Positions 14,488 to 44,856 of a stretch of 64,000 nucleotides of DNA are shown here, piece by piece (the first letter of the stretch is position 1; each line of letters starts with the position of its first letter). This DNA is from Pandoraea apista (GTDB lineage: Bacteria > Pseudomonadota > Gammaproteobacteria > Burkholderiales > Burkholderiaceae): NCBI RefSeq assembly GCF_001465595.2, contig NZ_CP013481.2, positions 496,001-560,000 of the forward strand, given 5' to 3'. The notes under the pieces were generated by a model, which saw only the letters and a program-made list of their open reading frames with translations, did no database searches and was not told where the DNA came from. The translations under genes and the position numbers were made by a program.

Positions 14488-14527
14488 CCGTAACGGAGTT
14501 AATTGTTCCGTAACGGAGTTAATTGTT
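14488..14527. repeat. Perfect 20-bp tandem duplication at the haemagglutinin breakpoint
   Basis: The 20-mer at 14488-14507 (starting CCGTAACGG) is repeated exactly at 14508-14527. The second copy runs into the first codons of the truncated haemagglutinin frame. It marks the junction between unrelated blocks and looks like a recombination or slippage scar. Confidence 0.85.
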
Positions 14528-17500: not shown

Positions 17501-18497
17501 GAGCTCGCGCTACGGCAGCTACCTGCGCGGTCGCGAGGCCGTCGCTACACTCTTCCCGTCGACGGATGCCCAAGGCAATGCGATGAGCTATCAGGGCGAC
17601 ATCACGATGTTCAGCGGTATTACGGGTTCGAAGACGGTGAATGGCCAGACGGTGCCCGTCGTCACCGACGCTGGTATTCACACCAACTTCGGTGGCGACA
17701 TCCAGATGCTCAACCCGGGCGGCAAGACGATCGTCGGCGTGGAGGGCGTGCCAGCGGGCGCGGGTGCAGGCTTGATCACGCAGGGGACGGGCAACATCGA
17801 CCTGTATTCGAAGGGTTCGATCCTGCTGGGTCTGTCGCGCATCATGACAACGTTTGGGGGCAGCATCCAGGGCTGGTCGGCCGAAGGGGACATCAATGCG
17901 GGCCGAGGTTCCAAGACGACGGTGGTATACACCCCACCCAAGCGGGTCTATGACGAGATGAGCAACGTGACCATATCGCCGACTGTGCCGTCCTCTGGTG
18001 CGGGTATTGCAACGCTCAGTCCGATTCCGGAGGTGCCGGCAGGAGACGTTGACCTGGTGGCGCCGCTGGGGACGATTGATGCAGGCGAGGCAGGGATTCG
18101 GGTCTCGGGCAACGTGAACTTCGCGGCGCTGGCGGTGGTGAACGCGGCCAACGTGCAGGTGCAGGGCAAGTCGACGGGGCTGCCGGTGATGGCAAGCGTG
18201 AACGTGGGGGCGCTGACCAACGCGAGTGCGGTGGCGAGCACTGCGGCGACGGCCGCGCAGGATGCGATGTCGCGTGAGCGCGCTTCAGCACGCCAAGCCA
18301 TGTCGTCGATCTTTTCGATACGCATGCTCGGCACCGGCGGTGAGGCGGCCCCGGACAACAGGCAGGCAGACCCCCAGGCGGAGAAGCCGACCAGCTATCG
18401 GTCGAGTAGCGCGGTTCAGGTCTTGGGCGGCGCGCATCTCGGAGACTTCGCTCGCAGTCAACTGACGGAGGCTGAACGACGATCACTCGGGCTTTAA
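14523..18497 (+). pseudogene. Filamentous-haemagglutinin-family exoprotein, C-terminal remnant (5' end lost)
   Basis: 1324 codons open without a real start: the frame enters directly from the 20-bp duplication in mid-domain. The sequence is a long beta-helix-like adhesin with repeated DLTLxAGRD-type strands (GGNLTLIAGRNAG, LIQAGRDIFYQS, LLQVQAGRNLYQG) and a C-terminal region I associate with DUF3739 (QQGVFVRQVYFKELL, GRGSKTTVVYTPPKRVYDE). It ends naturally at RSLGL. Intact relatives are several thousand residues with a TPS/FHA secretion domain and signal peptide at the N-terminus, all missing here, so the product could not be secreted. Such proteins are two-partner-secretion adhesins or contact-dependent factors. 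No partner TpsB is in the window. Confidence 0.8.
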
Positions 18498-22657: not shown

Positions 22658-24031
22658 TTACTCCGTTGCTTTCGGCGCTTGCTCAAGCACAATGCCGGCC
22701 TGATCGAGCATCCAATGCTCGATCTTGTCGTGCCACATTCGCAACATGTCCAGTGGGCGGCGCCGATAGTGCTTCTCCGCTAGCGCCGATGGTTTGTGCC
22801 CTTGAATCTGGGCGACGACGCCAACGGGGACCTCGCACCACTCGGACAATGTGCCGAACGACCTGCGTAGCCCGTGCAGCGTCACATGAGGCAGACCGGC
22901 TGCTTTGATCGCCTGGTTGTGCGCGTAGCGCGGTTCGGCGATTCGCCCCTTTTCGGCGTTGAGGCTGTGAAACACCCAGGGCGAAGGCTCCCATTTGAGT
23001 CCACAGGCTTCCAAGTTGCGCAAGCGGCGCCTGCTGGGCGGTATTTCATTGCGATGCTTCAGCTCGAGCAACAGGGCGGCTAGATAGGGGGTGAGGGGAA
23101 TCTCACGCCCGTCTTCAATCTTATCCGCGATATGGAGGCTACGCCACTGGAAATCGACATCATCCCAACGCAGTGCAGCGAGTTCTTCCCTGCGCGCCCC
23201 GGTGATGAGCAAGCCTTGCAGATACGCGGATTGCACTGGATTGTGCAAGGCGCGGACGGCGGAAAACCATGCGGCGAGCTGCTCCCTCTGCAGGCTGTCT
23301 CCTTCCTTGGTGCTGGTGCCCGGCAATGCCCCGGTGACCTTGGGAGATGTGAAGCAATCCGACGGAATAATGCCAGCGAACTTGTCCTCACCTTCGCACC
23401 ATTTTGCGAACGCCTTGAGCATGCGGAAGCCATAGGCGGCACTAGTCGGTCGAACAGGTACCTCGGCCTCTAGCCATGCACCAACCGTTTTGGCGGTGAG
23501 GTTGGAAAGCTTTAGTGCCATCAGCGAGTAAAGCGGTCCGCGCTCCGTTTTCTTACCGCCACGTTTAGCTCGACTCCCGCCAGGAGCGGTCAACTTTATA
23601 TGGTCGTTGATGTAGCCCGCAGATCTCGGCTTCTTGGTCTTCGGCGAAATCTTTGTGCGAAGGTCGTTAAGATAGTCGGCCCAAGCGTCCGCGACGGTCA
23701 CGCTTTCCCGGATCACCGCTACTCGCCTGGCCTCATGACTGGCGCGTTGCTCTGCTTTCACTTCTCGCGGGTCGTGACCGGCGTCAACGAGCGTCTGCAG
23801 CCGGCGTGCTTCTTCCTGGGCCTTGCTGATAGTCCAGCTTCGCGGGTCTCCAATGGTCAGACGGACCGTCTGTCCGTGAATCTTGCCTTGAAAAATGTAG
23901 GACTTGGCTCCGCCTGCCGTGGCGCGTAGTCCCAGACCGGGCGAAGCAGAGTCCCACAGGAATGCTTGTGTTCTACCTTCGGGGCATCGATGTGAATCTA
24001 TTCGCGCGGCAGTGAAGTTGACCTTGGCCAT
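22658..24031 (-). CDS. Tyrosine-type site-specific integrase (DUF4102/P4-like)
   Basis: 457 aa from the ATG at 24031; a TTG two codons upstream is in frame. N-terminal DUF4102-like domain (FLWDSASPGLGLRATAGGAKSYIFQGKIHGQTVRLTIG), SAM-like core-binding domain, then the catalytic domain with Arg I (ITGARREELAAL), H-x-x-R (HGLRRSF), the GHKP histidine and the Tyr in AEKHYRRRP. All catalytic positions are present, so it could be active. Its 5' end faces a 50-nt tRNA-Thr 3' half 186 nt away, the probable attachment site. Repeats at 24056-24092 lie in its promoter region. This is the likely integrase of the island that fills the left side of the window. Confidence 0.92.
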   Translation of the reverse strand: MAKVNFTAARIDSHRCPEGRTQAFLWDSASPGLGLRATAGGAKSYIFQGKIHGQTVRLTIGDPRSWTISKAQEEARRLQTLVDAGHDPREVKAEQRASHEARRVAVIRESVTVADAWADYLNDLRTKISPKTKKPRSAGYINDHIKLTAPGGSRAKRGGKKTERGPLYSLMALKLSNLTAKTVGAWLEAEVPVRPTSAAYGFRMLKAFAKWCEGEDKFAGIIPSDCFTSPKVTGALPGTSTKEGDSLQREQLAAWFSAVRALHNPVQSAYLQGLLITGARREELAALRWDDVDFQWRSLHIADKIEDGREIPLTPYLAALLLELKHRNEIPPSRRRLRNLEACGLKWEPSPWVFHSLNAEKGRIAEPRYAHNQAIKAAGLPHVTLHGLRRSFGTLSEWCEVPVGVVAQIQGHKPSALAEKHYRRRPLDMLRMWHDKIEHWMLDQAGIVLEQAPKATE

Positions 24032-24055
24032 GTTCAATCAGGGGAGGGCTGTGCT

Positions 24056-24216: not shown

Positions 24217-24266
24217 GGTGATTTGTAATCATCAGGTGGCGGGTTCGAGTCCTGCAGCCGGCACCA
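24217..24266 (+). other. tRNA-Thr(TGT) 3' half: probable island attachment site (attR-like)
   Basis: From the anticodon stem (GGTGA/TCATC) with loop TTTGTAA (anticodon TGT) through the T-arm GGCGGGTTCGAGTCCTGC to the acceptor end GCCGGCACCA, this is the 3' half of a tRNA-Thr. The 5' half is absent; the sequence before 24217 has no D-arm or acceptor strand. An intrinsic terminator follows directly. A 3' half plus native terminator beside an integrase is the footprint of tRNA-targeted integration. Confidence 0.8.
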
Positions 24267-24274
24267 AATACAAA

Positions 24275-33633: not shown

Positions 33634-35130
33634 TCACCGCCCATATTGCTGCTGGCGACGCACAGAGTCGAGCATGATCGAAGCGGCATCGGCCCAGTTC
33701 TGCATGCCGTTGGCGCCGCCCTGTCCGCGAGTGGCGCGCACTTGAGCCAGGTCGAGACGAGCACGGGTGTAGTCCTGCGACGCCGCGCGTGCCAGCCATT
33801 TCTCGCTCTCCGCATAGTCGCGTTGTGCGAGTTTGCCTTCGAAGTAGATCTCGCCGAGCAGTGTCTGCGCAATTGGGTAGCCGGTGTTGGCCGCACGCTT
33901 GTAGAGGTTGACGGCAGCCTTCGGGTCGCGCGGCACGCCGTACCCGTACTCGTAAATCATGCCGAGCGTAGTGAGCGCTGCGGCGTCGTTGCCGCGAGCG
34001 CGCAGCGCAGCGATATCGTTGCGGTCGGCACGCTGCGCGGCCTGCGTGATGCGTGCTTCGGCGTCGTCCCACGCATTGGCGCGCTGCGCTTGCGGCGTCT
34101 GTTGCGGGGCGACTGATGGGGTGTTCGCGTTCTCGCGGTATTTCGTCAGTTGATCAACCAGATACGGCGGAACGTGGACGCCGGCAGCGGCGTTCCCTGG
34201 CGGCATGGCCGGTTGTGCCGCGATTGGCGCCGATGCGGCGACAGCAGCGGCGGGCACTGGCGTCGTGCCACGCGTCGCACCGCCGCGCGTAACGTCGGCG
34301 GCCTTCCCGGTGGGCACGCTGGACGCCACCATGTACTGCGCGCCAAGCGGCACGTCGCCGATCAAACCACTCGAGATCCACGGACGTTGCTGTCCCCCCG
34401 TCAGTTCGGCGACCTGCTGCTGCACCAGATCGAGCGTGTGCTTGATCGTCGCACCCGGGGCTTTCATGTTCATCGCCAGATAGTAAGCGAACGGACTGTT
34501 GTCGATAGCACTGCCGAAGTTGCGCATCGAGTCGAACGCCGGCGCCTGATCGGCCGTCGAGAAGGCGATCAACTCGCCTTGCCCAACCTTCTCCGGCTTG
34601 AGGCCCGGCCCGGCGTTACCGCGCGACGGCACGCGGCAGGCGTCAATCACGGCGATGAACGATGTGGGCGCCGACGGCATGACCTTGCTGCGCACGTAGC
34701 CGACACGGATGGCGCGATCGAGCAGAATCGGACGCGTCATTGCGCGAATCGGTACGCCGGCATGCACTGGCACGAGGAAGTTGTCGCCGCCGGACTCGAA
34801 GCCGTGACCTGCGAAATAGAACAGCGAAACTTGCGCGCCTTTCGACGACTGCGCGAGCCACGCCACAGCTGCCTTGAATTCCTCTTGCGACAAGTCGGTC
34901 GCCACGCGTGTCTCGAAACCAAGCTGACGCAAAGTGTCACCGACGAGCTTGACGTCGTTGGCCGGCGAAATCAGCCGGTCGGCGCCGTCATAGGCGCTGT
35001 TGCCAATGACCAGCGCCACCTTGCGCGCGGGCTGCGGCGCGGGTCCGGCGTAGGTCGGGTTCGAAGTGAAGCACGACACGCCCAGCAGGACGATGGCCAG
35101 GCCGCGCAGTAACAAAGAGGTCATGGACAT
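33634..35130 (-). CDS. Exported caspase-like peptidase (C14) with C-terminal Sel1/TPR repeats
   Basis: 498 aa. A signal peptide (LLLRGLAIVLLGVSCFTSNPTYA) predicts export. The caspase-like p20 domain starts RKVALVIGNSAYDGADRLISPANDV and carries the catalytic dyad His109 (FYFAGHGFE) and Cys165 (AVIDACRVP). A Pro/Ala-rich linker (about 285-345) precedes Sel1-like repeats (DAAALTTLGMIYEYGYGVPRDPKAAVNLYKRAA pattern, then PIAQTLLGEIYFEGK). Such orthocaspase-like enzymes usually cut after Arg/Lys. It is the distal gene of a minus-strand set with the SulP transporter and one-TM protein. The substrate is unknown; an envelope or anti-sigma protein is possible but speculative. Confidence 0.9.
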   Translation of the reverse strand: MSMTSLLLRGLAIVLLGVSCFTSNPTYAGPAPQPARKVALVIGNSAYDGADRLISPANDVKLVGDTLRQLGFETRVATDLSQEEFKAAVAWLAQSSKGAQVSLFYFAGHGFESGGDNFLVPVHAGVPIRAMTRPILLDRAIRVGYVRSKVMPSAPTSFIAVIDACRVPSRGNAGPGLKPEKVGQGELIAFSTADQAPAFDSMRNFGSAIDNSPFAYYLAMNMKAPGATIKHTLDLVQQQVAELTGGQQRPWISSGLIGDVPLGAQYMVASSVPTGKAADVTRGGATRGTTPVPAAAVAASAPIAAQPAMPPGNAAAGVHVPPYLVDQLTKYRENANTPSVAPQQTPQAQRANAWDDAEARITQAAQRADRNDIAALRARGNDAAALTTLGMIYEYGYGVPRDPKAAVNLYKRAANTGYPIAQTLLGEIYFEGKLAQRDYAESEKWLARAASQDYTRARLDLAQVRATRGQGGANGMQNWADAASIMLDSVRRQQQYGR

Positions 35131-35155
35131 GGCAGTTCTGGCTCGGTCGGATCAA

Positions 35156-36925
35156 TCAGTGAGCAAAGGTCTGGGAAGCGGGCGCCGCGCCGCCAGAGAT
35201 GGGGGTGTCGGACGCGGGCACGACATGCAGGCGCCACGCCGGGACAAAATGCGGTAGCGCTTCTGTCATCGGGTGTTCAGATGACACATCGGTGGCCGGC
35301 ACGCGAAACCGCACGTCGGCATGGCGCGCCGCGCAGAACTGGGCGAATTGGGCGAGTGCGCGGCAGGCGGTCAGGTCGGTGCGGACAACGCCACACAGAT
35401 CCAGCATCACCGGCAGCGGCGGCTGCGCGCTGAGTGCGACGCCGGGATGCTCACGCTCGCGTGCGGCGTTGGCTTCGTCCACCCGTGCGAGCAGCGGTTC
35501 GACGACTGCGCTGTCGACGTTGTAGGCTAGCAATGCACCGCCTAACGTGGCGAGGAGTCCGTTGTCGGGACCACCATCGGATGTCATCACGATGCTCAGG
35601 CGGCGCGGTGCGGGCCAACCCACCAGCGCACCGAATACGGCGCCGACGCCGAAGCCGACCAGCGGTTGGCCCGAAGCGAGGGTGGCGACGAGTTCGAGCG
35701 AGAAGAGCCACATAGCGGCACCGAACAGGCGGCGCGGGCGCGCGTCGGAGAACGCGTGGCGCGTGATCGTGCGCGCAGCTTCGTCGATCATGTCGAGCGA
35801 CATCACGATCACGACCACGGCGACGGCCAGCTTCGGGAGCATCGCGACCAGCCCCACGCCGGCCGTGAGCGCTACACAGACCAGCACCGCATGCATTACG
35901 GCGGCCCAGCGCGTTTGCGCGCCGCTGGTGATCGCCATGTTGGAGCGCGTGACCGAGCCGACGTTGGGGAGCAGCGCCAATGCACCCAACAGCGTGTTGA
36001 CGGCGCCGAACGCGAGCAAGTCGCGGTCGACAGTGCCGCGTCGCAATGTGAGCGATTCGATGGACGACACGGCGATCACCGTGTCGAGCGACGAGACGAA
36101 ACCGATCACGATGCCGTAGCCGATGGTCAGGGCCAGAGCATGCACGCTCACGCCATGTAACAGGTCGAGCCACACGCCGGTGTCGATCGGTCGCCAGCCC
36201 GCGAAATCGAGGCCGGCTACACCGATGAGACGACAGGCGGGTGACGGCGCGGGCATCAAGGTCAACGCCAGGTAATAGGCGCCGGAAGCGGCCAGCATGG
36301 CGACAAAAAGCGACAGGCCGGCGGGCAGTGCGACCTTCCGCTTCGCACGCAACATCCGTTGTGCGAAGGATCGCCAAGTGAAATGGCTGGCAATGCCCAG
36401 CCCGGCAACCGCCAACGTCACGATGCCCCAGTCGAGCGTGCAACGCGTCAGGAAGTTGACCTGATCCGACACGGCCAACCCGGCCACACCGAAGATCAAA
36501 CCGGAGAGTACCGGCGCGGGGACTTTGCGCACGAACGAGCCGCCATGACGCAGGCCAATGATCATCTGCATCAATCCGGAGATCAGCACGGCCACGCCGG
36601 CGAGCGTCAGAATCGGGCGCATGCCCTGTGCGGCCATTGCCGGGTCCGCCACCAGAGCCCCTATCAGATTTGATAGAAAGAGTGTCGACGCGACACGGGG
36701 GCCGGATATCATTGGCCGCGTTCCTGCGCCAAGTGCGGCGAGTGCAATGCCGATCACGGCCGTCAGTGTGCCGAGCAGAATGCCGAACGCGGCGGCCTGC
36801 GGGCCGGGCAACGGCGAGGTGGCTTGTGCGCCGAGTGCGATGTATTCAGTGGTGCAGCCAAGCGTGACGACCAGCGCTGCGAGCGCCTCCATGCCCCAGC
36901 GCACACGGGACTCGGGCGCGTTCAT
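35156..36925 (-). CDS. SulP family anion transporter with STAS-like tail
   Basis: 589 aa; the ATG at 36925 overlaps the preceding stop (ATGA), so the two genes are coupled. About 10-12 TM helices starting MEALAALVVTLGCTTEYIALGA. SulP features include SGPRVASTLFLSNL, VPAPVLSGLIFGVAGLAV, GFVSSLDTVIAVSSIESLTLRRGTVDRDLLAFGAVN pattern and NVGSVTRSNMAITSGA. The C-terminus (LPVMLDLCGVVRTDLTACRALAQF) looks like a divergent STAS domain. Probably moves sulfate, bicarbonate or a dicarboxylate; a permissive annotation is best. Confidence 0.87.
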   Translation of the reverse strand: MNAPESRVRWGMEALAALVVTLGCTTEYIALGAQATSPLPGPQAAAFGILLGTLTAVIGIALAALGAGTRPMISGPRVASTLFLSNLIGALVADPAMAAQGMRPILTLAGVAVLISGLMQMIIGLRHGGSFVRKVPAPVLSGLIFGVAGLAVSDQVNFLTRCTLDWGIVTLAVAGLGIASHFTWRSFAQRMLRAKRKVALPAGLSLFVAMLAASGAYYLALTLMPAPSPACRLIGVAGLDFAGWRPIDTGVWLDLLHGVSVHALALTIGYGIVIGFVSSLDTVIAVSSIESLTLRRGTVDRDLLAFGAVNTLLGALALLPNVGSVTRSNMAITSGAQTRWAAVMHAVLVCVALTAGVGLVAMLPKLAVAVVVIVMSLDMIDEAARTITRHAFSDARPRRLFGAAMWLFSLELVATLASGQPLVGFGVGAVFGALVGWPAPRRLSIVMTSDGGPDNGLLATLGGALLAYNVDSAVVEPLLARVDEANAAREREHPGVALSAQPPLPVMLDLCGVVRTDLTACRALAQFAQFCAARHADVRFRVPATDVSSEHPMTEALPHFVPAWRLHVVPASDTPISGGAAPASQTFAH

Positions 36926-37296
36926 GCGCGGCACTGTGAGTTGGCGGCCACGCGCGCAACGCCGTTGGCACGCGATGTGGCTTGCAGGGCGTCGTCGAGC
37001 GAGAGCGCAGGGAAGTGCAGTTGCCACGCCCCGTTCTCATTGGGGCCGTAGGTTACAACGGCGCCGTATTGCGTGAGGAAATCGTTGAGCTCGGCGAGCG
37101 ATGCCTGCGGGCCGAACCATGCCTGGACTTCGCCGCAGATGCCGCCGTCGGCGCCCCGTTGACGTGCCTCGCCATGGTTGCCCGCGAGCGTGGCAGCCGC
37201 ATGTCCGAGACCGAGGGTGAGGCCGGCGAGTGCCAGCAGCAGTGCAAGCACGAAGGCGGTCTTGCTGTTGATCCAGTCGGCAATCGCATTGAACAC
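36922..37296 (-). CDS. One-TM membrane protein with an anti-sigma-like C-terminal domain
   Basis: 124 aa from a GTG at 37296, preceded by GGGGAGAG (complement of 37302-37309). A single TM helix (AFVLALLLALAGLTLGLGHAAATL) is followed by a periplasmic domain: ASLAELNDFLTQYGAVVTYGPNENGAWQLHFPALSLDDALQA pattern. That domain resembles the C-terminal part of the anti-sigma factor at 42331 (AQLRAALADLQLDIVRGPDEDG...). The similarity suggests a regulatory or scaffolding role linked to the ECF system, by inference. Coupled to the SulP gene. Confidence 0.75.
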   Translation of the reverse strand: MFNAIADWINSKTAFVLALLLALAGLTLGLGHAAATLAGNHGEARQRGADGGICGEVQAWFGPQASLAELNDFLTQYGAVVTYGPNENGAWQLHFPALSLDDALQATSRANGVARVAANSQCRA

Positions 37297-37587
37297 GTTC
37301 GCTCTCCCCAGGCAGCGCGGCGATGGCGCACTTGACGTGAGAGCACGGGAGGCGCCTTGTTTTGAGTGGGCCGAGCATAGCAGAGAATGCCGGGCCGAAA
37401 AATAGCGTTGCGTGCGCAACACGCGAACGATGTCGGACCCCGCGCGTCATCATCTCGATAGTTTCGATATGAGAGAATCGGGCACCAAGGGTCTCGAACC
37501 GTTTGGATGCCTACGGGGGTAGGCGGTGGACTTGCCTACGGGGAAAGCGCCGGGAAAGACCGGGCGAAGATCAGACAGCAGAAAAAA

Positions 37588-38466
37588 ATGACACGATTCG
37601 AAAACGGGAAACTCGACGGGGGCCGGGGTGTCCTCGTCGCGATGCGGCGCGCAGGTGTGCTGTGCGCTACGGTCATGACCTTCGCACTCGGCGGTTGCGC
37701 GGTCACCAAGAACAGCCAGGGCAACACGGTCTATGGTATCGATCAGGCAAGCCTGTTCGGCACGGTGGTCGACACCTTCAAGCTGGCCGACGGCTCCGAA
37801 GGTAACCTGCGCCGCAGCAATGGTCAGTACTCACTCAAGCTCGAACGCTACATGCGCGTGCTGCCTTTGCAGAATGCAATTACCGCTCGCGTGGTGCGCA
37901 GCGAGGTAGTGGGGGACCGCTCCGTTGTGGTGGTCGAAACGCAGGAGCGCAACTGTCCGTTCAAGTATGTGCTCTACGCCATTCAAGACAGCGACGTACT
38001 CGGCTGGACGTTCGGTAATTGCGCCGATCGCCCGCGCGCCGACCTGGTCGACAATGGCCGGGCGCTGGTCTTCGACTTCCCTGGCAACGGCCGTCTCGTA
38101 CGCCATACCTATACCGATAGCCGCCTGTTGCAATCGGCCATTCCGGTGCCGCCGGGCGTTGACGTGCGCCGCAAGCCCTTTGCGGATGCCACGCTCAAGG
38201 CCATTGACGATCCTGCCGACGCTAACCGTTTCGTACCGGCCCCGCCGCAGACCGCAGGTGCGAGCACCGGCAGCAGTCCGCAAACGAGTCGCCACACGCC
38301 GCCGCGCCGTCAGTCCCGTAGCGCAGCAACCGCCACGGCGAACAACAACCCGCTGCCGGCCAACGCGCCCGTCTCGTCAGGCCGTACCGTACCGGGCCTG
38401 CCATCTGCGCCGCTCGCATTCGGCGCCGAGGAAGTCAAACCGGTTCGAGTCGACCTGCGGAATTGA
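37588..38466 (+). CDS. Putative lipoprotein of unknown function
   Basis: 292 aa from the ATG at 37588; an ATG at 37642 would give a shorter signal peptide. A signal segment with lipobox FALGGC-A predicts outer- or inner-membrane lipidation. The body (LFGTVVDTFKLADGSEGNLRR, VVVVETQERNCPFKYVLYAI, DVLGWTFGNC) is followed by a Pro/Ser/Thr-rich low-complexity region from about residue 225 to the end. No family recognised. First gene of a plus-strand set with the polytopic protein and glycerophosphodiesterase, with overlapping start/stop. Confidence 0.8.
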   Translation: MTRFENGKLDGGRGVLVAMRRAGVLCATVMTFALGGCAVTKNSQGNTVYGIDQASLFGTVVDTFKLADGSEGNLRRSNGQYSLKLERYMRVLPLQNAITARVVRSEVVGDRSVVVVETQERNCPFKYVLYAIQDSDVLGWTFGNCADRPRADLVDNGRALVFDFPGNGRLVRHTYTDSRLLQSAIPVPPGVDVRRKPFADATLKAIDDPADANRFVPAPPQTAGASTGSSPQTSRHTPPRRQSRSAATATANNNPLPANAPVSSGRTVPGLPSAPLAFGAEEVKPVRVDLRN

Positions 38467-38468
38467 TC

Positions 38469-40037
38469 GTGCGAAATACCCTACTCAAACAGACGGCGTT
38501 TCTGATCGTTCTCACGCTGGTCTATCTCACCTTCGAACTCGGTTTCAACGGGCGCTTGCTCGACGTGGTGGGCGGTACCGCGACCATCGACGACGTGCAT
38601 CACATCGAAGTCTACGGCCGCACGCTCTCGGGCATCGCGGCGGCGCTGTTCGTGCTGCAATGGCTCATGGGCAAGCGGGCGAGAAGTGGGAAAGACGGCG
38701 GCAAGCGCTCGCCGGGGCTCGGCACGGTCGGCATCGCGTGTCTGGTGACTATCGTCGTTGTGTACTTTGCCATCAAGACCTTTGTTGACGTGCTCGTCAC
38801 TACGCGCGACGCCGAATTTCGCCGCATCGCTGCCAACACGATCCTGTTGCAGCGCTCGCTGGTCGAGGGGCGCCTCCAACTCGACGGCCTGACGGGCAAC
38901 GACATGGTATTCGCCAAGCCGCAGGGCAAGGCCTTCCTCGCGCTGTTTCCGGTGCTGGCGGTTTCGGTCGACCGTCTCGACGAGAAGACCCGTACGGTCA
39001 AGTCAACGCTGGTGCGCGAGGCAGTGCGGCGAGAGATGGGCGGGGCCAAGGGCTACTACGACAGCTATCGCGACGCGATGAAGCAGGTGCACGATAACTG
39101 GAGCAAATACGCCGCGATCATTCCCGATTGGGATGACGGCCTGAAGGCAGAGCAGCAGCGGGCGTGGAGCGACTATCGCAATCGGCTGAGCCGCCGTGGC
39201 TGGCAACCCGAGACCGTGCCTTTCTATGCGCGTGGACGCGTGAGCGCAAGCGTTCGCCGCGATCTGCCGGCGCTGCCCGGCAACTGGAATCCCGGCGACA
39301 TCGTGTCGTTCTACCGCGCGGTCGCCGTGAAGTACCGTCAGGCGGCGGCGCGCAAGGTCCACAGCGTAGAGGTAGGCGGCGAGACGATTCCTCCGGGGCT
39401 GAGCTACGAAGCGTTCGTGGCCCGTCCGGGGGTGCAGAAGGAACTGCGTAAGTCGCTGGGCTTGCCGGCCAGTGCGACCGTGCTGCCGTCGTATGCAAGC
39501 ACCGAGGCGTTTGGCCAACTGTTCGACGCCTTCTCCTATGAGCAGGCACGCGTGCAGATGAGCAAGTACGATGCGTCGCCCGCCGACTTCGAGGACGGTG
39601 GCAAATATGCCAGGGAAGGGATCGATGCCACGCGTGCCGCCATCGTCCCCGCCGTAGCGTTGTTCTTCTCGCTGCTCGGTGCCATCGCCCATTTCTCGAA
39701 GCTCCTGTTCCTGAGTGCAAAGTGCCTGCTGCTCATGCGCGCAGGGCCGGACGGCGAGTTGAGCCGGCGCGCTTCCCGCACGGCATTGGCGGTACTGTTC
39801 TGCGCGATGATCGGGGTGTGGTCGGTTCTGTCGATGGCGTCGAACGACATTACGCGCAGCGACCTGTTCGGCCAGATGATGTCATGGGCTCGCACGGGGG
39901 CGTCGGGCGGACGGGTGCTGACTAACATCGCGCATGTCGTGGTGGTGGGGCAGGGCTATGGCTATCCGCTCAACGAGGCCATTCGCATGGACATTCTGCA
40001 AGGGCTGAACTATGGCTATCACCCGTCTGCGAAATAA
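38469..40037 (+). CDS. Polytopic inner-membrane protein of unknown function
   Basis: 522 aa from a GTG at 38469; a TTG at 38463 overlapping the previous stop is the alternative. TM segments are seen at the N-terminus (TAFLIVLTLVYLTFELGF, LSGIAAALFVLQWLM, TVGIACLVTIVVVYFAIKTFV) and C-terminus (IVPAVALFFSLLGAIAHF, TALAVLFCAMIGVWSVLSMA). They enclose a large hydrophilic domain of about 280 residues (LQRSLVEGRLQLDGLTGNDM...GYYDSYRDAMKQVHDNWSKYAAIIPDWDDG region). No family known to me. Its end overlaps the next gene by 26 nt. Confidence 0.82.
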   Translation: MRNTLLKQTAFLIVLTLVYLTFELGFNGRLLDVVGGTATIDDVHHIEVYGRTLSGIAAALFVLQWLMGKRARSGKDGGKRSPGLGTVGIACLVTIVVVYFAIKTFVDVLVTTRDAEFRRIAANTILLQRSLVEGRLQLDGLTGNDMVFAKPQGKAFLALFPVLAVSVDRLDEKTRTVKSTLVREAVRREMGGAKGYYDSYRDAMKQVHDNWSKYAAIIPDWDDGLKAEQQRAWSDYRNRLSRRGWQPETVPFYARGRVSASVRRDLPALPGNWNPGDIVSFYRAVAVKYRQAAARKVHSVEVGGETIPPGLSYEAFVARPGVQKELRKSLGLPASATVLPSYASTEAFGQLFDAFSYEQARVQMSKYDASPADFEDGGKYAREGIDATRAAIVPAVALFFSLLGAIAHFSKLLFLSAKCLLLMRAGPDGELSRRASRTALAVLFCAMIGVWSVLSMASNDITRSDLFGQMMSWARTGASGGRVLTNIAHVVVVGQGYGYPLNEAIRMDILQGLNYGYHPSAK

Positions 40038-40950
40038 GGCCGCGTTGGCGGCGCTCGCGCTCGCGGCGATGGCCACGACGGCCACTCCGTTGCAGGCGGC
40101 CTGCCTTGGCATGCAGATTCATGCGCATCGAGGCTCGGCCGAAGATCCGGAGAACTCCGGCAGTGCGCTGCGCAGCGGCTATGCCGGCAAGTGGGATGGC
40201 GTCGAGACCGACATGCAGCAATTGTCCGATGGCACATGGGTGTTGCATCACGATTTGCGCACGGGGCGTTCGGTGCTCGCCGGCGCCCCTCGCCCGGTAG
40301 CGCAGCTATCGAGCGCCGACTGGCGCGCTGCGCGTATGACGTTGCACGGCAAGCCGACATCCGAGGCGCCGCCGTTCCTGTCCGATGCGCTGGCCATTGC
40401 CAGCCTTTATCCGGGCAAGACGTTGAACGCCGAGATCAAGGAAGTCGTCGGCAATTGCAAACCCATTCAGGGGCTGGTCGCCCAGATGCGGCAAGGCATT
40501 TCGCACGGTAACTGGTTTCTTACGTCGGGCTTGCTGCAGAACCTGCGTTGCGCGCGTACGGCCGATAGTCAGGGTTACATGGGCCTGATCGTGTTCGACG
40601 GGCGCAATGCCGAGGCGGCGGCGTCCAACCGCTGGACCAAGATGATTGCGCGCCACGCCAAGGCACCCGTTCTCGATCGCGCATGGATGACTCGCCTCGT
40701 GAGCGAACTCGGATTGCCGGCGGGGATTCATGTCGATGCCCGCACGATGGACGCCAATCCCGATTTGCTTACAGACGCCGCGGCGGCGCGTCTGGCGGTC
40801 TTCGCCTACGCCGTGCAGGGCGACGCAGCACTGGCCGACGCCATCGGCCGGGCTCACGCCCGCACGGGCAAGATGCCGAGCGGCGCGGTGGTGGATGGCT
40901 CTGCCGATGCGTTCTGTCGCCGTGTGGCGCAGGTCACAGGGCTGCACTGA
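40012..40950 (+). CDS. Exported glycerophosphodiester phosphodiesterase-like protein
   Basis: 312 aa with a signal peptide (AALAALALAAMATTATPLQAA). GDPD/PI-PLC-like TIM-barrel motifs: IHAHRGSAEDPENS with the catalytic His-Arg, GVETDMQQLSDGTWVLHHD with the E-x-D metal pair and second His, and LNAEIKE. Expected to hydrolyse glycerophosphodiesters in the periplasm, producing glycerol-3-phosphate. The C-terminal third lacks the common LxVxxWTV motif, so it is a divergent member. Overlaps the upstream membrane protein gene, implying co-expression. An ECF-like promoter follows its stop. Confidence 0.87.
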   Translation: MAITRLRNKAALAALALAAMATTATPLQAACLGMQIHAHRGSAEDPENSGSALRSGYAGKWDGVETDMQQLSDGTWVLHHDLRTGRSVLAGAPRPVAQLSSADWRAARMTLHGKPTSEAPPFLSDALAIASLYPGKTLNAEIKEVVGNCKPIQGLVAQMRQGISHGNWFLTSGLLQNLRCARTADSQGYMGLIVFDGRNAEAAASNRWTKMIARHAKAPVLDRAWMTRLVSELGLPAGIHVDARTMDANPDLLTDAAAARLAVFAYAVQGDAALADAIGRAHARTGKMPSGAVVDGSADAFCRRVAQVTGLH

Positions 40951-40960
40951 CATAATATCT

Positions 40961-40991
40961 TTCCGGTTTGCTTCTCCTGCTGCGAATAGGG
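40961..40991 (+). promoter_or_regulatory. Predicted ECF-sigma promoter of the ybjN-sigma-anti-sigma operon
   Basis: TTCCGGTTT (40961-40969) and CGAATAGGG (40983-40991) separated by 13 nt. Both blocks and the spacer length recur exactly at 43070-43100 ahead of the next operon and nowhere else I could find. The two elements fit -35/-10 boxes of an ECF sigma factor, presumably the one encoded at 41570. Confidence 0.7.
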
Positions 40992-41011
40992 AATGTCGGC
41001 GCCTTGCCGCC

Positions 41012-41037
41012 AACCTGCCGGTCGTCACCGGCAGGTT
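41012..41037 (+). promoter_or_regulatory. Perfect 11-bp hairpin in the predicted leader of the sigma operon
   Basis: AACCTGCCGGT (41012-41022) pairs perfectly with ACCGGCAGGTT (41027-41037) around CGTC. It falls about 15-20 nt after the predicted transcription start and 14 nt before the AGGAG site of the YbjN gene. It may protect the 5' end of the mRNA, or serve as a terminator for the upstream operon; no T-tract. Confidence 0.5.
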
Positions 41038-41061
41038 CATCCCGAACCTCAGGAGCCTGCC

Positions 41062-41487
41062 ATGCAATACGCCATTCCGACCCTGCTCGACTACTTTAAG
41101 CGTGAGGGCTACGTCGCCCATCTGGACGACGACGGCGACATCGTTTTCAAGCGCGAAGGCATGAATTACGCATTGTGCTTCGATCGCGACGACCCGGAGT
41201 TCGCCAAGCTGATCTTGCCCAATGTGTGGCATGTCGACACGCCGCAGGAGCGGGCGATCGTGCTGCATGCCATGAACGAGATCAATCGCGGTTACAAGAC
41301 CATCAAGATCCACACTGTCGGCGATCAGGTGTGGCTGGCTATCGAGATGTGGCTCGTCAATCAAGCCGATTGGGCGGTGCACATGCCACGGGCGGTCCGG
41401 GCGCTGTCGCATGCGTTGTACCGGTTCGCCGAGCAGATGAGGACCTCGGTAGATGAGGCACGTGAGGCGCCCCGGCCGAATCACTGA
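41062..41487 (+). CDS. YbjN-domain protein
   Basis: 141 aa from the ATG at 41062, with AGGAG 6 nt upstream; an earlier in-frame ATG at 40993 would be inside the leader hairpin. Sequence YAIPTLLDYFKREGYVAHLDDDGDIVFKREG then CFDRDDPEFAKLILPNVW and ALSHALYRFAEQM fits the YbjN/T3SS-chaperone-like fold. YbjN-like proteins affect stress resistance and motility in enterobacteria. Here it is the first gene of the ECF sigma operon and may modulate the sigma/anti-sigma pair. Confidence 0.75.
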   Translation: MQYAIPTLLDYFKREGYVAHLDDDGDIVFKREGMNYALCFDRDDPEFAKLILPNVWHVDTPQERAIVLHAMNEINRGYKTIKIHTVGDQVWLAIEMWLVNQADWAVHMPRAVRALSHALYRFAEQMRTSVDEAREAPRPNH

Positions 41488-41569
41488 TTCACTGATGGCG
41501 TCCTGATAACAAGCAGGGACGACGCGGCGCGGATCGCGTAGAATTCGCGCTGGACTACGCCCTGCCAGC

Positions 41570-42334
41570 ATGAAAAGCGACGACATCGATAACGAAGAAC
41601 TGACGCGCCTGCTGCGCAAGTTCGGCAAAGCCGGCGACCGCAGCCGCGAGGCGTTGGCGGCGCACCGTAAGTTTTACGACCACATTGCTCGCGTGCTCGA
41701 CCGTCAGGCGTTGCAGGCGACCAACTACAACGAAGATCTGGCGGTCGCTGCGGTGCAGGACGCCTGGTTGCGCATTCTGCGCAAGGCCGAGACTTACGAC
41801 CCCACACGCGCCACGGTCAAAACTTGGGTCAAGGACATCACCTACAAAAGTGCGGTCGATGTCCTTCGCAAGCACTACAAACACAATCGCAATACCTCAT
41901 TGTCCAATGACGACGCCGTGCCGACGGATGCCGATGGCGATAGTCTCGCCACCCGCACCGGTGCCGGCCACTGGCTCGCCACGGTGACCGATCCCGACGA
42001 GACAGCCTGCGAATTGCCGTCGCCGGAAGATCGCGTCTACGGCTCCCAGTTGGAGCGCGTGATGCGCACCTGCCTGGACACGCTGCCGACCGGCGACGGT
42101 CCGAACTACCGGTTGGCGATGGAACTCTCGCTGGAAGAGGGGCTGAGCTACGCCGATATGACCGTGCGCCTACAGGACCAGACACCGCCCGGCGTGCTGA
42201 TCAATGCCGAGCAAGTGCGGGGATGGGTGCGGCAAGCCACGCAACGCATGCGACGGTGTGTGTCGGCGAAACTGGGCTGGACGCGTCCGCCGAAGGGCAA
42301 TCCGGCAGTGGATCAAGAGGAGACGCGCGCATGA
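41570..42334 (+). CDS. ECF RNA polymerase sigma factor
   Basis: 254 aa. Sigma region 2 is visible as YNEDLAVAAVQDAWLRILRKAETYDPTRATVKTWVKDITYKSAVDVLRKHYKH pattern, and region 4 as MRTCLDTLPTG...LAMELSLEEGLSYADMTVRL...VRGWVRQATQRMRRCV. A long linker (90-165) is rich in acidic and Thr residues, and the N-terminal extension of about 40 residues is unusual for ECFs. Its stop overlaps the start of the anti-sigma gene (ATGA). Two promoter-like elements upstream of this operon and the next suggest autoregulation. Confidence 0.88.
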   Translation: MKSDDIDNEELTRLLRKFGKAGDRSREALAAHRKFYDHIARVLDRQALQATNYNEDLAVAAVQDAWLRILRKAETYDPTRATVKTWVKDITYKSAVDVLRKHYKHNRNTSLSNDDAVPTDADGDSLATRTGAGHWLATVTDPDETACELPSPEDRVYGSQLERVMRTCLDTLPTGDGPNYRLAMELSLEEGLSYADMTVRLQDQTPPGVLINAEQVRGWVRQATQRMRRCVSAKLGWTRPPKGNPAVDQEETRA

Positions 42335-42987
42335 CGAACGACGATCTGGAACGCTTTCGCGCGTTGGCTTTCCTGTATGTGTGCGACAAGCTCGACGATA
42401 CCGAAGCGGCGTGGATGCGACAAAAGTTGGTTGCTCATCCCGAATGGCAGGCAGAACTCGATCAGGAGCGACGTTTTGCCGAGGCCACGCGTGAGGCCAT
42501 CGACGCCAGCTACGCCGAGCGTCCCCCGTTGGTGGCGTTCGACGAGTTGCCCACTCTGGCGCCCGAGCGCAGCGCGCCGTCGCTGGGCGAGCGGCTACGC
42601 ACATGGTGGACAGGCCCGATGTCGCGCGGATGGGCTTTCGCTTCCATAGCGGCGTTGGCGATCGTGGCAGGCACGCAGACGATGCGTCTGGCCGACACGA
42701 CGTCGACGCCGGTGGATCGGGTGAATAGCGACACAAGTGCGATGCGCGGTGGACCGGTATCGCCGGCCCCGGGCGTGCCGATGCTGCAGGTGATCTTCCG
42801 AGAGGACACGACCGTCGCCCAGTTGCGTGCCGCGCTGGCCGATCTGCAACTCGACATTGTGCGTGGCCCGGACGAGGACGGCATGGTCTGGCTGGCAGTG
42901 CCCACGGGCGACGCGGCCAAGGCACTGGCAGGTCTCAAGGCAACGGGGCTACTGTCGTATGGCGAGGTGGCGGACGATCCGCACTGA
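42331..42987 (+). CDS. Anti-sigma factor (one TM, RskA-like)
   Basis: 218 aa from the ATG at 42331, coupled to the sigma gene. The cytoplasmic N-terminus (LERFRALAFLYVCDKLDDTEAAWMRQKL pattern) looks like a zinc-less anti-sigma domain. One TM helix lies near 90-110 (GWAFASIAALAIVAGTQTM). The periplasmic C-terminus (LQVIFREDTTVAQLRAALADLQLDIVRGPDEDGMVWLAVP pattern) is of the kind found in many anti-sigma factors and is shared with the protein at 36922. It should hold the sigma factor at the inner membrane until an envelope signal triggers proteolysis. Confidence 0.85.
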   Translation: MTNDDLERFRALAFLYVCDKLDDTEAAWMRQKLVAHPEWQAELDQERRFAEATREAIDASYAERPPLVAFDELPTLAPERSAPSLGERLRTWWTGPMSRGWAFASIAALAIVAGTQTMRLADTTSTPVDRVNSDTSAMRGGPVSPAPGVPMLQVIFREDTTVAQLRAALADLQLDIVRGPDEDGMVWLAVPTGDAAKALAGLKATGLLSYGEVADDPH

Positions 42988-43013
42988 TCGATCCGACAGG
43001 TGGCACACACAAA

Positions 43014-43035
43014 AAAGGGGGCTTCGGCCCCCTTT
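43014..43035 (+). terminator. Intrinsic terminator of the sigma operon
   Basis: AAAGGGGGC (43014-43022) pairs with GCCCCCTTT (43027-43035) around a TTCG tetraloop, followed by GCTTT. It lies 27 nt after the anti-sigma stop and directly before the second ECF promoter. Confidence 0.85.
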
Positions 43036-43069
43036 GCTTTGGGGCCCGCAGAATATTTTCCAAATTCTC

Positions 43070-43100
43070 TTCCGGTTTTGTCGCACCGCTCCGAATAGGG
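43070..43100 (+). promoter_or_regulatory. Predicted ECF-sigma promoter of the 43222-44856 operon
   Basis: TTCCGGTTT (43070-43078), a 13-nt spacer and CGAATAGGG (43092-43100): both boxes and the spacing are identical to 40961-40991. It leaves a leader of about 115 nt before the ATG at 43222. Confidence 0.7.
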
Positions 43101-43221
43101 GGTATCCGCAGCGATGCCCGATGGGCGCGGCGGGCGACTGCGCAGGCCATTTCCGACGGCCGGGCGCTTGACCGAAACCTTAGCGTGACGCAAACGCGAC
43201 ACGTCGAACTGGAGAGAAGCA

Positions 43222-43998
43222 ATGAACCAACGTGGCAAGATTCTGCGCGACACGAGCACCGGCCCCGGCCTTGTCAGCATCGCTGGCCGTCAGTATCCGT
43301 TCACCCTTGAGGGAGTGTGGCAGTCCGAACAGGCGCCGAGCGTGAATATGACAGTCGACGCGCTGATCGATGAGGCTGGCCAACTGGTACAGCTGCGCGC
43401 CGTCTCCGACAGCCAGCTTGCCCGCGAGGCGACCGACGAGGCACTCGCCGCCGTCAAGCAACGCGGTAACGCGCTCGTCGCCCGGTTCGGTGCGCGCACG
43501 CTCGGCGCCATGGGCCTGCTCGCCGTGGCGTGGTTCTTCCTCAATACGATCACTGTGCAGGTGTCGTCGAACTACAAGGTCGGCATCTCCCTGTGGAAGA
43601 TCCTGGGCCTCATCAACGCACCGGGCGGAATGATCAACTCGCTGGGCGGGACCGGCGGAAGTGCCGGTCTCTATGGCGTGGTGGCGGTGCTCGCGTTGCT
43701 TGCCCCGATGGCGCCTTACTTCGTGCGCGATCCCCGTGCGCATCTCGCGAATCTGTTGCCGCTCGTCTTCATGGTCGTGCTGGCGATCGGCATCTACATG
43801 AACATCAGCGACGGTATTTCTCAGGCGCAAGGCGCGGCGTCGATGTTCGGCGGAAAGCAGGCAGCGGACATTGCCAGTGAACTGGTGAAGGAAGCGCTCA
43901 AGGCAGTGTCGATCGGCTTGGGCGGCTACCTCGCCTTGGTCGTCAGTCTCTATCTCGCCGCGACCGGTGTGATCGGTTGGACGGCCGCCAAGCGCTAA
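43222..43998 (+). CDS. Inner-membrane protein of unknown function, predicted ECF-regulon member
   Basis: 258 aa, with GGAGAG before the ATG. An N-terminal soluble region of about 85 residues (GLVSIAGRQYPFTLEGVWQSEQAPSVNMTVDA pattern) could be a small beta domain. Four TM helices follow (LGAMGLLAVAWFFLNTITV, GLYGVVAVLALLAPMAPYF, LLPLVFMVVLAIGIYMNI, IGLGGYLALVVSLYLAATGVIGW). A Gly/Asn-rich loop separates the first two. No family recognised. It is the first gene after the second predicted ECF promoter and precedes a lipoprotein gene by 66 nt. Confidence 0.82.
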   Translation: MNQRGKILRDTSTGPGLVSIAGRQYPFTLEGVWQSEQAPSVNMTVDALIDEAGQLVQLRAVSDSQLAREATDEALAAVKQRGNALVARFGARTLGAMGLLAVAWFFLNTITVQVSSNYKVGISLWKILGLINAPGGMINSLGGTGGSAGLYGVVAVLALLAPMAPYFVRDPRAHLANLLPLVFMVVLAIGIYMNISDGISQAQGAASMFGGKQAADIASELVKEALKAVSIGLGGYLALVVSLYLAATGVIGWTAAKR

Positions 43999-44064
43999 AC
44001 GTCACACGGCCTGCTCCCCCGACACTTAACCGAATTCCGAAGACTTTCGACAAGGATGCCCACC

Positions 44065-44856
44065 ATGAATACGTACATGCTCGCCTTCCAACGTTCCGTC
44101 GGGAACCTCCTGCTGACGACCGCGATTGCGGCGTCGGCGCTGGGACTCTCCGCGTGTGGCGACAAGTCGCCGTCAGGCAAGCCGGCCGCCGAAGCGGGGC
44201 CCGCTGCGCCCAATCTGGCCGACGCGACGTCGCCGCGCGCTGTGGCGCAGGCGCAGCAACAGGCCGCACAGTCGGCGCTGCCCAAGGGCGACCCTGCGAC
44301 ACCGGCCTCGAACTACGTCGAATACAACAGCGGCAACCAGTTGATGTTCGCTTACCTCGCGTTGTCTGACATGCCGATCGACTATGACCAGATCGCCAAC
44401 CGGATGTCGCGCGATTACGCGGCGGCGAACGACGAGTTCCGCAAGCGCGATCTGCTGGCCGCGCTCAAACCGAAGATCGATCAGGCTGTTGCGCAGGCTA
44501 AGGCGCAGCGCTACTTCCGCATCACCGTGAGCAATCCGGTTCAGAAGTACGACTTCGAGAAGAAGAGCTTTCCGCTGGATAGCTCGTTGTGGGAAAGCGG
44601 CTCGTATCGCTACTTCTACGATAACGGCGAGTACCGGCTGAGCTTCAGCGATGGCGACCGCTTCCGCTACCTGTCCGTGAATAATGAAGAGGCGGCACGC
44701 AACATCGAAGCAATGCGCGCGCGGGGCAATCCGCCCACACTGGTCGTCTACGGCTACACGCAGGCGTCCGATATGTCGAACAAGGCGGTGAAGGCGCAGA
44801 TTGTGAAGGTGGCGCTGGTCGATCGGCAAGGTAACGTGTTGGCCGAGCAACAATAA
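44065..44856 (+). CDS. Putative lipoprotein (DUF4852-like), predicted ECF-regulon member
   Basis: 263 aa from the ATG at 44065, which has AAGGA 8 nt upstream; an in-frame ATG at 44056 overlaps that site. Signal peptide with lipobox LSAC-G, an Ala/Pro-rich linker, then a folded region QLMFAYLALSDMPIDYDQIANRM, RKRDLLAALKPKIDQAVAQAKAQRYFRIT, YDFEKKSFPLDSSLW and a C-terminal VKVALVDRQGNVLAEQQ. This resembles DUF4852 as I remember it, with moderate certainty. Probably an envelope component induced with the membrane protein upstream. Confidence 0.78.
   Translation: MNTYMLAFQRSVGNLLLTTAIAASALGLSACGDKSPSGKPAAEAGPAAPNLADATSPRAVAQAQQQAAQSALPKGDPATPASNYVEYNSGNQLMFAYLALSDMPIDYDQIANRMSRDYAAANDEFRKRDLLAALKPKIDQAVAQAKAQRYFRITVSNPVQKYDFEKKSFPLDSSLWESGSYRYFYDNGEYRLSFSDGDRFRYLSVNNEEAARNIEAMRARGNPPTLVVYGYTQASDMSNKAVKAQIVKVALVDRQGNVLAEQQ

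Follow-up and report, generated by a model that had tools for sequence, protein, structure and literature searches.

Predicted Arg-Gly cleavage of a membrane anti-sigma factor by an exported caspase-type protease encoded in the same mobile cassette of Pandoraea apista

The 64,000-nucleotide stretch of Pandoraea apista analysed here (NZ_CP013481.2, 496,001-560,000, or G000:C1:496001-560000; genome size 5.57 Mb), hereafter the window, contains at positions 33634-44856 a block of 11 genes, all at the positions given by an earlier reading of the letters alone (the sequence-only reading). Its minus strand encodes, in the order of transcription, a protein with one transmembrane helix (the one-TM protein), a SulP transporter and an exported caspase with Sel1 repeats. 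The plus strand encodes lipoprotein A, a 524-residue polytopic membrane protein, a glycerophosphodiester phosphodiesterase (GDPD), a YbjN-like protein, an extracytoplasmic function (ECF) sigma factor, its anti-sigma factor, a 258-residue polytopic protein and lipoprotein B, which carries DUF4852 (Table 1; genome (G), locus (L) and protein (P) labels are internal to the analysis). From sequence comparison and a structure model we propose, with a probability of about 0.6, that the block is a self-contained envelope signalling cassette in which cleavage of the anti-sigma factor begins with the exported caspase.

The gene identities of the sequence-only reading were borne out by Pfam and TIGRFAM matches and, for signal peptides and lipoproteins, by eye. 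The caspase matches Peptidase_C14 (E 8.8e-32) with His109 and Cys165 both present, and its Sel1 repeats lie in two stretches; the SulP transporter matches PF00916 (E 1e-25), with a non-significant STAS match (0.24), and its gene adjoins the one-TM gene also in L034, L035 and L163. The GDPD domain is found at E 5.2e-10, and the YbjN/TY-Chap1 match (E 6.2e-6) scores 26.3 bits against a Pfam cut-off of 27. The ECF sigma factor passes TIGR02937 (47.5 bits against 42.9), and the anti-sigma gene, whose start overlaps the end of the sigma gene by 4 bases, matches NF052375 at E 2.7e-6, under that model's own cut-off. The one-TM gene has a conserved start at 37296, though the longest open reading frame begins at 37422. 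A likeness of the polytopic protein to DotU of type VI secretion (E 0.17) was dismissed as chance.

Table 1. Features of the block, in window coordinates
Feature	Position	Strand	Basis
Exported caspase-like (paracaspase/orthocaspase-type) cysteine protease, C14 and Sel1; His109/Cys165, D59, D163, D200	33634..35130	-	Pfam, MALT1 alignment, conservation
Two Arg-Gly pairs, R282-G283 and R287-G288, in the C14-Sel1 linker; predicted self-processing sites	34267..34287	-	Function inferred
SulP-type transporter, no recognisable STAS domain	35156..36925	-	Pfam
One-TM protein, transmembrane helix and periplasmic domain as in the anti-sigma factor; R47-G48 (codons 37153-37158) after the helix	36922..37296	-	Profile, alignment
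Lipoprotein A	37507..38466	+	By eye; homologues in other genomes
Polytopic membrane protein, 524 aa, no significant family	38463..40037	+	Pfam search; GDPD-fused relative in Azospirillum
GDPD, signal-like N-terminus by eye	40012..40950	+	Pfam
Predicted sigma-dependent promoter TTCCGGTTT-N13-CGAATAGGG for ybjN-sigma-anti-sigma	40961..40991	+	Motif scan
YbjN/TY-Chap1-like protein	41062..41487	+	Pfam, just under cut-off
ECF sigma factor	41570..42334	+	TIGR02937
Membrane-spanning anti-sigma factor; R139-G140 (codons 42745-42750), 18 residues past the transmembrane helix, predicted site-1 cut	42331..42987	+	Alignment, model
Terminator-like hairpin GGGGGCTTCGGCCCCC, kept in 5/5 aligned copies	43017..43032	+	Alignment
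Second predicted sigma-dependent promoter, last two genes	43070..43100	+	Motif scan
Polytopic membrane protein, 258 aa, no family	43222..43998	+	Pfam search
Lipoprotein B, DUF4852 (E 2.7e-6)	44056..44856	+	Family match

What kind of protease is the caspase? All 10 solved-structure sequences matched by its C14 domain are MALT1 (best 8.5e-14), and when the whole-protein profile is compared with solved structures, Sel1 proteins come first and MALT1 next, at 1.3e-21. MALT1 anchors the P1 arginine through Asp365, E500 and D462 (PMC4626109; papers are cited here and below for the particular passages concerned), and D59, D163 and D200 of the caspase align with MALT1 Asp365, D462 and E500, respectively, the MALT1 residues being counted along the alignment from Cys464 (PMC4659944). 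His109, Cys165 and these three acidic residues are conserved in 49/49 caspases, a partly redundant set. MALT1 also favours Gly at P1' (PMC6207715), and the non-caspase C14 members characterised to 2017 prefer Arg or Lys, the bacterial MaOC1 among C14 proteins processing itself (PMC5756287). The caspase thus resembles the MALT1 paracaspase, and its dyad and acidic pocket predict an enzyme of the Arg-specific type.

An Arg-Gly bond of the kind that such an enzyme would cut recurs in three proteins of the cassette. The anti-sigma factor and the one-TM protein had been said to share a periplasmic domain, and profile retrieval confirms this (E 5.9e-10 to 1.3e-17): a profile built from anti-sigma factors alone finds both one-TM proteins of the window's genome (5.9e-10 and 7.7e-10) as well as one-TM proteins from two other genera (1.9e-9 and 1.3e-17). 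An alignment of 12 anti-sigma factors, with identities as low as 20%, has just 13 invariant columns, and two of them are R139 and G140, in the linker between the transmembrane helix and the domain. The pair lies within 40 residues past the helix in 22/22 anti-sigma factors, where 6.3 are expected from composition, and in 11/11 (3.1 expected) once near-duplicates are removed; seven further anti-sigma factors, found later, all have it before the domain. One-TM proteins carry it within 35 residues past the helix in 18/18 tested (5.7 expected; 19/19 by eye), and the 90 residues after the C14 domain contain it in 32/33 caspases (12.3 expected), or 24/25 of a non-redundant set (10.2 expected). Counted by locus, the caspase's own linker has the pair at 18/18. 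Left out were P0061 (truncated) and P0070 (C14 mostly missing) from the caspase-linker count, P0039 from the one-TM shuffle test, and one control with too short a tail.

Control sets stay close to what composition alone would give, or fall under it. Anti-sigma factors with the same domain have Arg-Gly in 6/20 (4.3 expected) and at scattered positions, the six comprising 5 of 18 (L135, L139, L144, L147, L150) and one of two caspase-adjacent proteins with the pair within 40 residues; at the corresponding place they keep other motifs (YRTLA, LRPLG, LEPLSG). Control caspases have it in 4/28 (8.6 expected). A separate count by locus, with duplicate loci collapsed, gives 12/12 clade caspases, including the second caspase of G285, against 5/28 others, and none in G290.

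An AlphaFold2 model of the anti-sigma factor, computed on the 12-row alignment (mean per-residue confidence, pLDDT, 78.2; predicted template-modelling score, pTM, 0.37), consists of a confident helical N-terminal domain, a transmembrane-like helix at 102-121, a stretch at 122-144 with pLDDT below 50, and a confident periplasmic domain of beta-alpha-beta-beta-alpha-beta order at 151-213. R139-G140 falls in the low-confidence stretch, so the model predicts a disordered linker in which the site would be flexible and exposed, as befits a cut site. A fold search with the model found no match at E<=0.001; the best were ACT-domain aspartate kinases (4.7e-3) and subtilisin prosegments or inhibitor (1.0e-2 and weaker; target TM-scores 0.56-0.67), with which a weak match to the Fervidolysin prodomain (0.12) agrees. 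We read these likenesses as a predicted ferredoxin-like fold of the periplasmic domain in both proteins, and do not take them for homology to ACT domains or subtilisin prosegments.

Taken together, these features suggest the following scheme. The membrane-spanning anti-sigma factor would hold the ECF sigma factor until the exported, Arg-specific caspase of MALT1/orthocaspase type cuts it after Arg139, within the Arg-Gly pair just outside the inner membrane, as the site-1 protease; a housekeeping site-2 protease of the RseP type, which we assume, would then free the sigma factor, and this would turn on its own operon (ybjN-sigma-anti-sigma) and that of the 258-residue membrane protein and the DUF4852 lipoprotein. 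The one-TM protein, with the same domain and the same pair, may be a second substrate or a decoy that sets a threshold, and the caspase probably cuts its own linker at Arg-Gly as well. The SulP transporter, the lipoprotein A-polytopic-GDPD module and the Sel1 repeats might supply the signal or form an output arm; the lipid or anion stress that the sequence-only reading offered as the trigger is a conjecture to which the analysis lent no support. Cleavage itself, the order of the steps, the site-2 step and the decoy role are what we infer. The sequence-only reading had offered processing of the anti-sigma factor by the caspase as a speculation; with the conserved Arg-Gly pair, the pocket residues, the joint inheritance described below and the predicted flexible site, it is now the best-supported mechanism, the cleavage being deduced from these.

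Several observations weigh against this scheme. Arg-Gly ranks only third among enriched dipeptides in the caspase linkers and fifth in those of the anti-sigma factors, and is outside the top six in the one-TM proteins. Many linkers are related by descent and were treated as independent, so the tail probabilities are too small; likewise, the anti-sigma factor and the one-TM protein share a domain, and their Arg-Gly pairs may therefore represent one event rather than two. The pair could be structural. The bacterial sites match MALT1 at P1-P1' only and follow neither its P4 Leu nor its P2 Pro/Ser rule. P0056 lacks the pair, as does a related full-length caspase in G290, whose 4.3-kb contig shows no sigma pair; conversely, the second caspase of G285 (L083 9710-12853) has an Arg-Gly linker and no sigma pair beside it, and two anti-sigma factors beside smaller exported caspases (L141 and L143) lack Arg-Gly at the corresponding place, that of L143 having one at the end of the transmembrane helix. 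Finally, the motif scan found no sigma motif before the window's caspase/one-TM operon.

Two of these loci deserve a description of their own. The L083 caspase of G285 adjoins an MscS-like channel, as judged by eye. At L141 5871-7350 and L143 5949-7390 the anti-sigma genes overlap those of small exported caspases without Sel1 repeats, and the linkers carry the motifs VRNVA/VRATA.

The promoter evidence concerns the output side. The element TTCCGGTTT-N13-CGAATAGGG occurs exactly at both window positions listed in Table 1; with up to 3 mismatches allowed, chance would give 0.04 sites in the window. In the whole genome it occurs exactly four times, twice in each of two copies of the block (see below), once ahead of ybjN-sigma-anti-sigma and once ahead of the last two genes; six more sites each need 3 mismatches, against 2 such sites for a reversed-pattern control. 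The same two genes are preceded by it in another genus (g444), with 3 and 1 mismatches in G879 and 2 and 1 in G913, and at the loci of split sets it has 2-4 mismatches before ybjN and 0-3 before the 258-residue gene. In G169 an inverted repeat supplies the same element to both divergent operons (0/150 shuffles), in G313 an element is common to ybjN and an outer-membrane gene (1/150), and in G234 (L034) the pair is weak alone (19/150) and has the same form as that of G313, TGAACC-N15-GCGAA; these shuffles control for palindromes only inexactly, because several pairs are two strands of one divergent region, shuffled separately (window lipoprotein A/one-TM, L033, L034 one-TM/sigma, L084 ybjN/outer-membrane gene and caspase/sigma, L023). 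Scans of G285, G1010 and G981 found no such motif. The sigma factor is thus predicted to be autoregulated through a sigma-specific promoter before its own operon. The sequence-only reading had supposed regulated promoters for the block, and this stands for ybjN and the 258-residue gene and fails for the caspase and lipoprotein A operons: neither has the motif in the scan, and a different, conserved divergent region lies between them. For the caspase/SulP operon of this species, control by the sigma factor is accordingly not supported. The outer-membrane gene behind the sigma-like element of G313 is of the TPR/barrel kind and adjoins a gene for a secreted-looking protein (L084 5780-8628). A third motif copy (1 mismatch) lies upstream of a 349-residue gene beside lipoprotein A (L164 16876-18187); G913 has a similar gene, at which the scan did not find the motif.

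Could the caspase instead be an output of the system? In this account there is still one sigma-controlled system, but another protease cuts the anti-sigma factor, the caspase serves as an output enzyme or matures other envelope proteins, and Arg-Gly is a structural turn. In genus g444 the caspase does follow ybjN-sigma-anti-sigma on the same strand and behind the sigma motif, as an output gene would, and related anti-sigma factors keep YRTLA and LRPLG at that place, so a boundary motif can occur where there is no caspase; the loose likeness of the modelled periplasmic fold to prosegments of subtilisin would also point to a relation with other proteases. Against this, it is Arg-Gly, not Arg alone, that tracks the caspase clade; the pair also stands in the caspase's own linker; in the model it lies in a predicted disordered stretch outside the folded domain; and no sigma motif precedes the window's caspase operon. 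We regard this account as unlikely, though it has real points in its favour.

Are the parts inherited together? The 524-residue polytopic protein is found in 8/32 genomes of the genus, in 6/399 of the order at E<=1e-5 (the genome itself counted, two matches being weak and partial) and in 4/369 of the class (the genome itself and three weak partial matches). At E<=1e-60 the caspase occurs in the same 8/32 genus genomes, and at E<=1e-20 the anti-sigma factor occurs in 9/32, namely the same 8 and G014, a genome without the caspase in which a decayed partial anti-sigma gene with two stops remains (G014:C1:1009616-1010149). A random match of 8 with 8 of 32 has a probability of 9.5e-8 per pair, uncorrected for ancestry. 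Full 11-gene sets are present in G000 (twice), G009, G016, G024 and G026, the polytopic gene of G026 being frameshifted. The remaining three genomes (G015, G019, G022) have the caspase and lipoprotein A-polytopic-GDPD at one locus and ybjN-sigma-anti-sigma with the 258-residue gene and lipoprotein B at another (3/3), at 4.0 and 0.9 Mb in G015, which is a single contig; the set is therefore kept without close linkage.

Five further genera of the order carry the set in rearranged form, and sigma factor, anti-sigma factor and caspase are together in all 8 of the genomes examined there (G169, G234, G285, G313, G981, G1010, G879, G913), which were chosen by their matches and so show arrangement, not frequency. 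G169 has membrane protein-sigma-anti-sigma-caspase facing ybjN-lipoprotein A-polytopic; G234 has one-TM-SulP-caspase, sigma-anti-sigma and lipoprotein A-polytopic-GDPD; G285 has one run of sigma-anti-sigma-one-TM-SulP-caspase, then lipoprotein A-polytopic-lipase; G313 has ybjN, caspase and sigma-anti-sigma; G1010 has sigma-anti-sigma-caspase facing the 258-residue gene and lipoprotein B; G981 has the caspase facing sigma-anti-sigma, with one-TM-SulP-lipoprotein A and a second caspase ~15 kb on; and G879 and G913 have nine genes on one strand, lipoprotein A-polytopic-GDPD-ybjN-sigma-anti-sigma-caspase-258-residue gene-lipoprotein B. Among 16 family caspase matches the sigma pair is adjacent in 11, ~15 kb off in 1 and elsewhere in the genome in 3, and there is none beside 1 (G285:C9). 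Conservation across Burkholderiales, proposed earlier as a check on the block, thus holds in the form of related sets in five other genera and is patchy, the caspase occurring in 13/299 family genomes. Distances between caspases correlate with those between anti-sigma factors (0.77 over 12 cassettes; 0/2000 permutations). Outside the genus, the window's sigma and anti-sigma factors are closest to those of G879/G913 (0.41) and its caspase to that of G285 (0.57), so partners seem to have been swapped between cassettes.

All 11 genes recur in the same order in the same genome (tblastn) at C1:471018-482272. This copy B ends 47.4 kb before copy A, the block under study (C1:529634-540856). Protein identity between the copies is 78-93%, with synonymous divergence (dS) of 0.54-1.05 and a ratio of nonsynonymous to synonymous divergence (dN/dS) of 0.066-0.137 across the 11 genes, so purifying selection has kept both copies. 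In comparison with G009, of the same genus, the backbone DNA is 88-95% identical, whereas from tRNA-Thr (C1:443017) to C1:520701 2.5-kb windows are 99.9-100% identical; a 49-base repeat of the tRNA 3' end (att repeat) lies at window 24219-24267, adjoining a tyrosine integrase at 22658-24037. Copy B therefore sits on a ~77-kb element integrated at tRNA-Thr (C1:443017-520267) and recently shared between species; copy A lies outside it. The cassette is a unit that moves between species. Because there is an intact 11/11-gene second copy and related sets exist in other genera, the block is not a chance assembly, and the proposal of the sequence-only reading that it forms one functional unit is upheld by that copy, by the co-occurrence in the same 8/32 genomes and by the sets that are split but kept. 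The island also encodes a 1324-residue filamentous-haemagglutinin-type protein (DUF3739; window 14523-18497).

Island carriage bears on two further accounts. The first takes the cassette for an anti-phage or abortive, suicide-type system, with the caspase and membrane enzymes as toxic effectors released by the sigma switch; copy B does ride a recently transferred tRNA-Thr island, and caspases and ECF sigma factors are known in immune-type systems (PMC8195603; Craspase, PMC10028731), but PADLOC gave only a weak caspase match (1e-5) in one of the 10 cassette proteins scanned (lipoprotein B left out) and matched no known defence gene set, the parts look exported or membrane-bound rather than cytosolic, and copy A is outside the island, all of which makes defence improbable. 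That unrelated genes are merely held together by the island, as the solitary lipoprotein-polytopic(-GDPD) module on plasmids and the SulP and one-TM genes not found in several cassette versions might suggest, is very improbable indeed, given the split-but-kept sets in three genomes, the different gene orders in other genera, the shared promoters and the purifying selection that has acted on each of the 11 genes in both copies.

How does the proposed caspase-driven switch compare with known systems? Like RseA/DegS/RseP-type proteolysis (scheme in PMC8999054), it has a membrane anti-sigma factor with a periplasmic part, an adjacent ECF sigma factor, and predicted autoregulation and stepwise proteolysis; unlike it, the predicted site-1 protease is a cassette-encoded exported caspase-type cysteine protease, not DegS or signal peptidase. 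In Craspase, of type III-E CRISPR (Csx29, Csx30, CASP-sigma), an ECF sigma factor is freed of its inhibitor by a caspase-family protease (PMC10028731), and relief of ECF sigma inhibition by such a protease is predicted here too; there, however, it is an RNA-activated CHAT protease in a CRISPR complex acting on an unrelated inhibitor, whereas here it would be exported, with Sel1 repeats, and act on a membrane anti-sigma factor. Matches of the window proteins include no CHAT or CRISPR family, and the only TPR-named one is a weak AlgK match in the Sel1 region. Sigma-70 genes in metacaspase operons of Myxococcus, Anaeromyxobacter, Ralstonia and others were noticed in 2012, but the part of that account cited names no anti-sigma factor, export, cut site, promoter, SulP, GDPD or polytopic partner (PMC3501461). 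ECF54/CHAT and EACC2-caspase-ECF systems also place a caspase-type protease beside an ECF sigma factor, ECF54 being described in the passages cited without an anti-sigma factor and the EACC2 systems with other domain partners (PMC8999054, PMC8195603). MALT1, with the closest solved relatives of the C14 domain, cleaves at Arg-Gly (PMC6207715, PMC4659944), but is a human immune signalling protein, whereas the present enzyme is bacterial and exported, has Sel1 repeats and differs in extended site preference.

Among the top 1 to 25 matches of each search in the open-access literature, which leaves subscription journals and preprints outside its coverage, we found no description of an anti-sigma factor as the target of an exported caspase. 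The functions of prokaryotic caspases are still largely open. Just one orthocaspase had been biochemically characterised by 2017 (PMC5756287). We put at even odds that the cassette represents a new form of envelope sigma control, with a secreted paracaspase as dedicated site-1 protease at Arg-Gly, a one-TM decoy, self-processing, and a mobile unit that keeps its Arg-Gly code through partner exchange. If so, a caspase-type protease would join the anti-sigma site-1 proteases, and the cassette would be a bacterial counterpart of MALT1 signalling, where cutting the Arg-Gly bonds of inhibitors switches transcription on. Since one cassette holds the protease, its predicted substrate with the exact bond, and the output promoters with the genes under them, the question of caspase function could be tested with few clones.

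A last point concerns the lipoprotein A-polytopic module. Plasmids of Acetobacter and Azospirillum carry this pair of genes in ~17-kb stretches that have no caspase or sigma match; a plasmid search at the DNA level found no match. The sequence-only reading would have been contradicted by the two halves occurring independently, and the outcome is mixed, leaning for the most part in its favour: both split loci are kept in the three genus genomes and sigma factor, anti-sigma factor and caspase stay together in the 8 other-genera genomes, while lipoprotein-polytopic(-GDPD) stands alone on the two alphaproteobacterial plasmids and sigma-anti-sigma-caspase lacks it in the fetched stretches of G313 and G1010. 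Since each part is seen without the other, the cassette consists of two joined modules. In G285 a polytopic relative lies beside a class-3 lipase, and as such relatives stand beside or are fused to lipid hydrolases, the polytopic protein is probably their membrane partner. On the Azospirillum plasmid (L167 7977-10892) it is fused to GDPD in one 971-residue protein, behind a lipoprotein A-like gene, and in G394 (L037 7938-11629) a weak polytopic relative overlaps a patatin phospholipase of the neuropathy target esterase (NTE) type with a cyclic-nucleotide domain.

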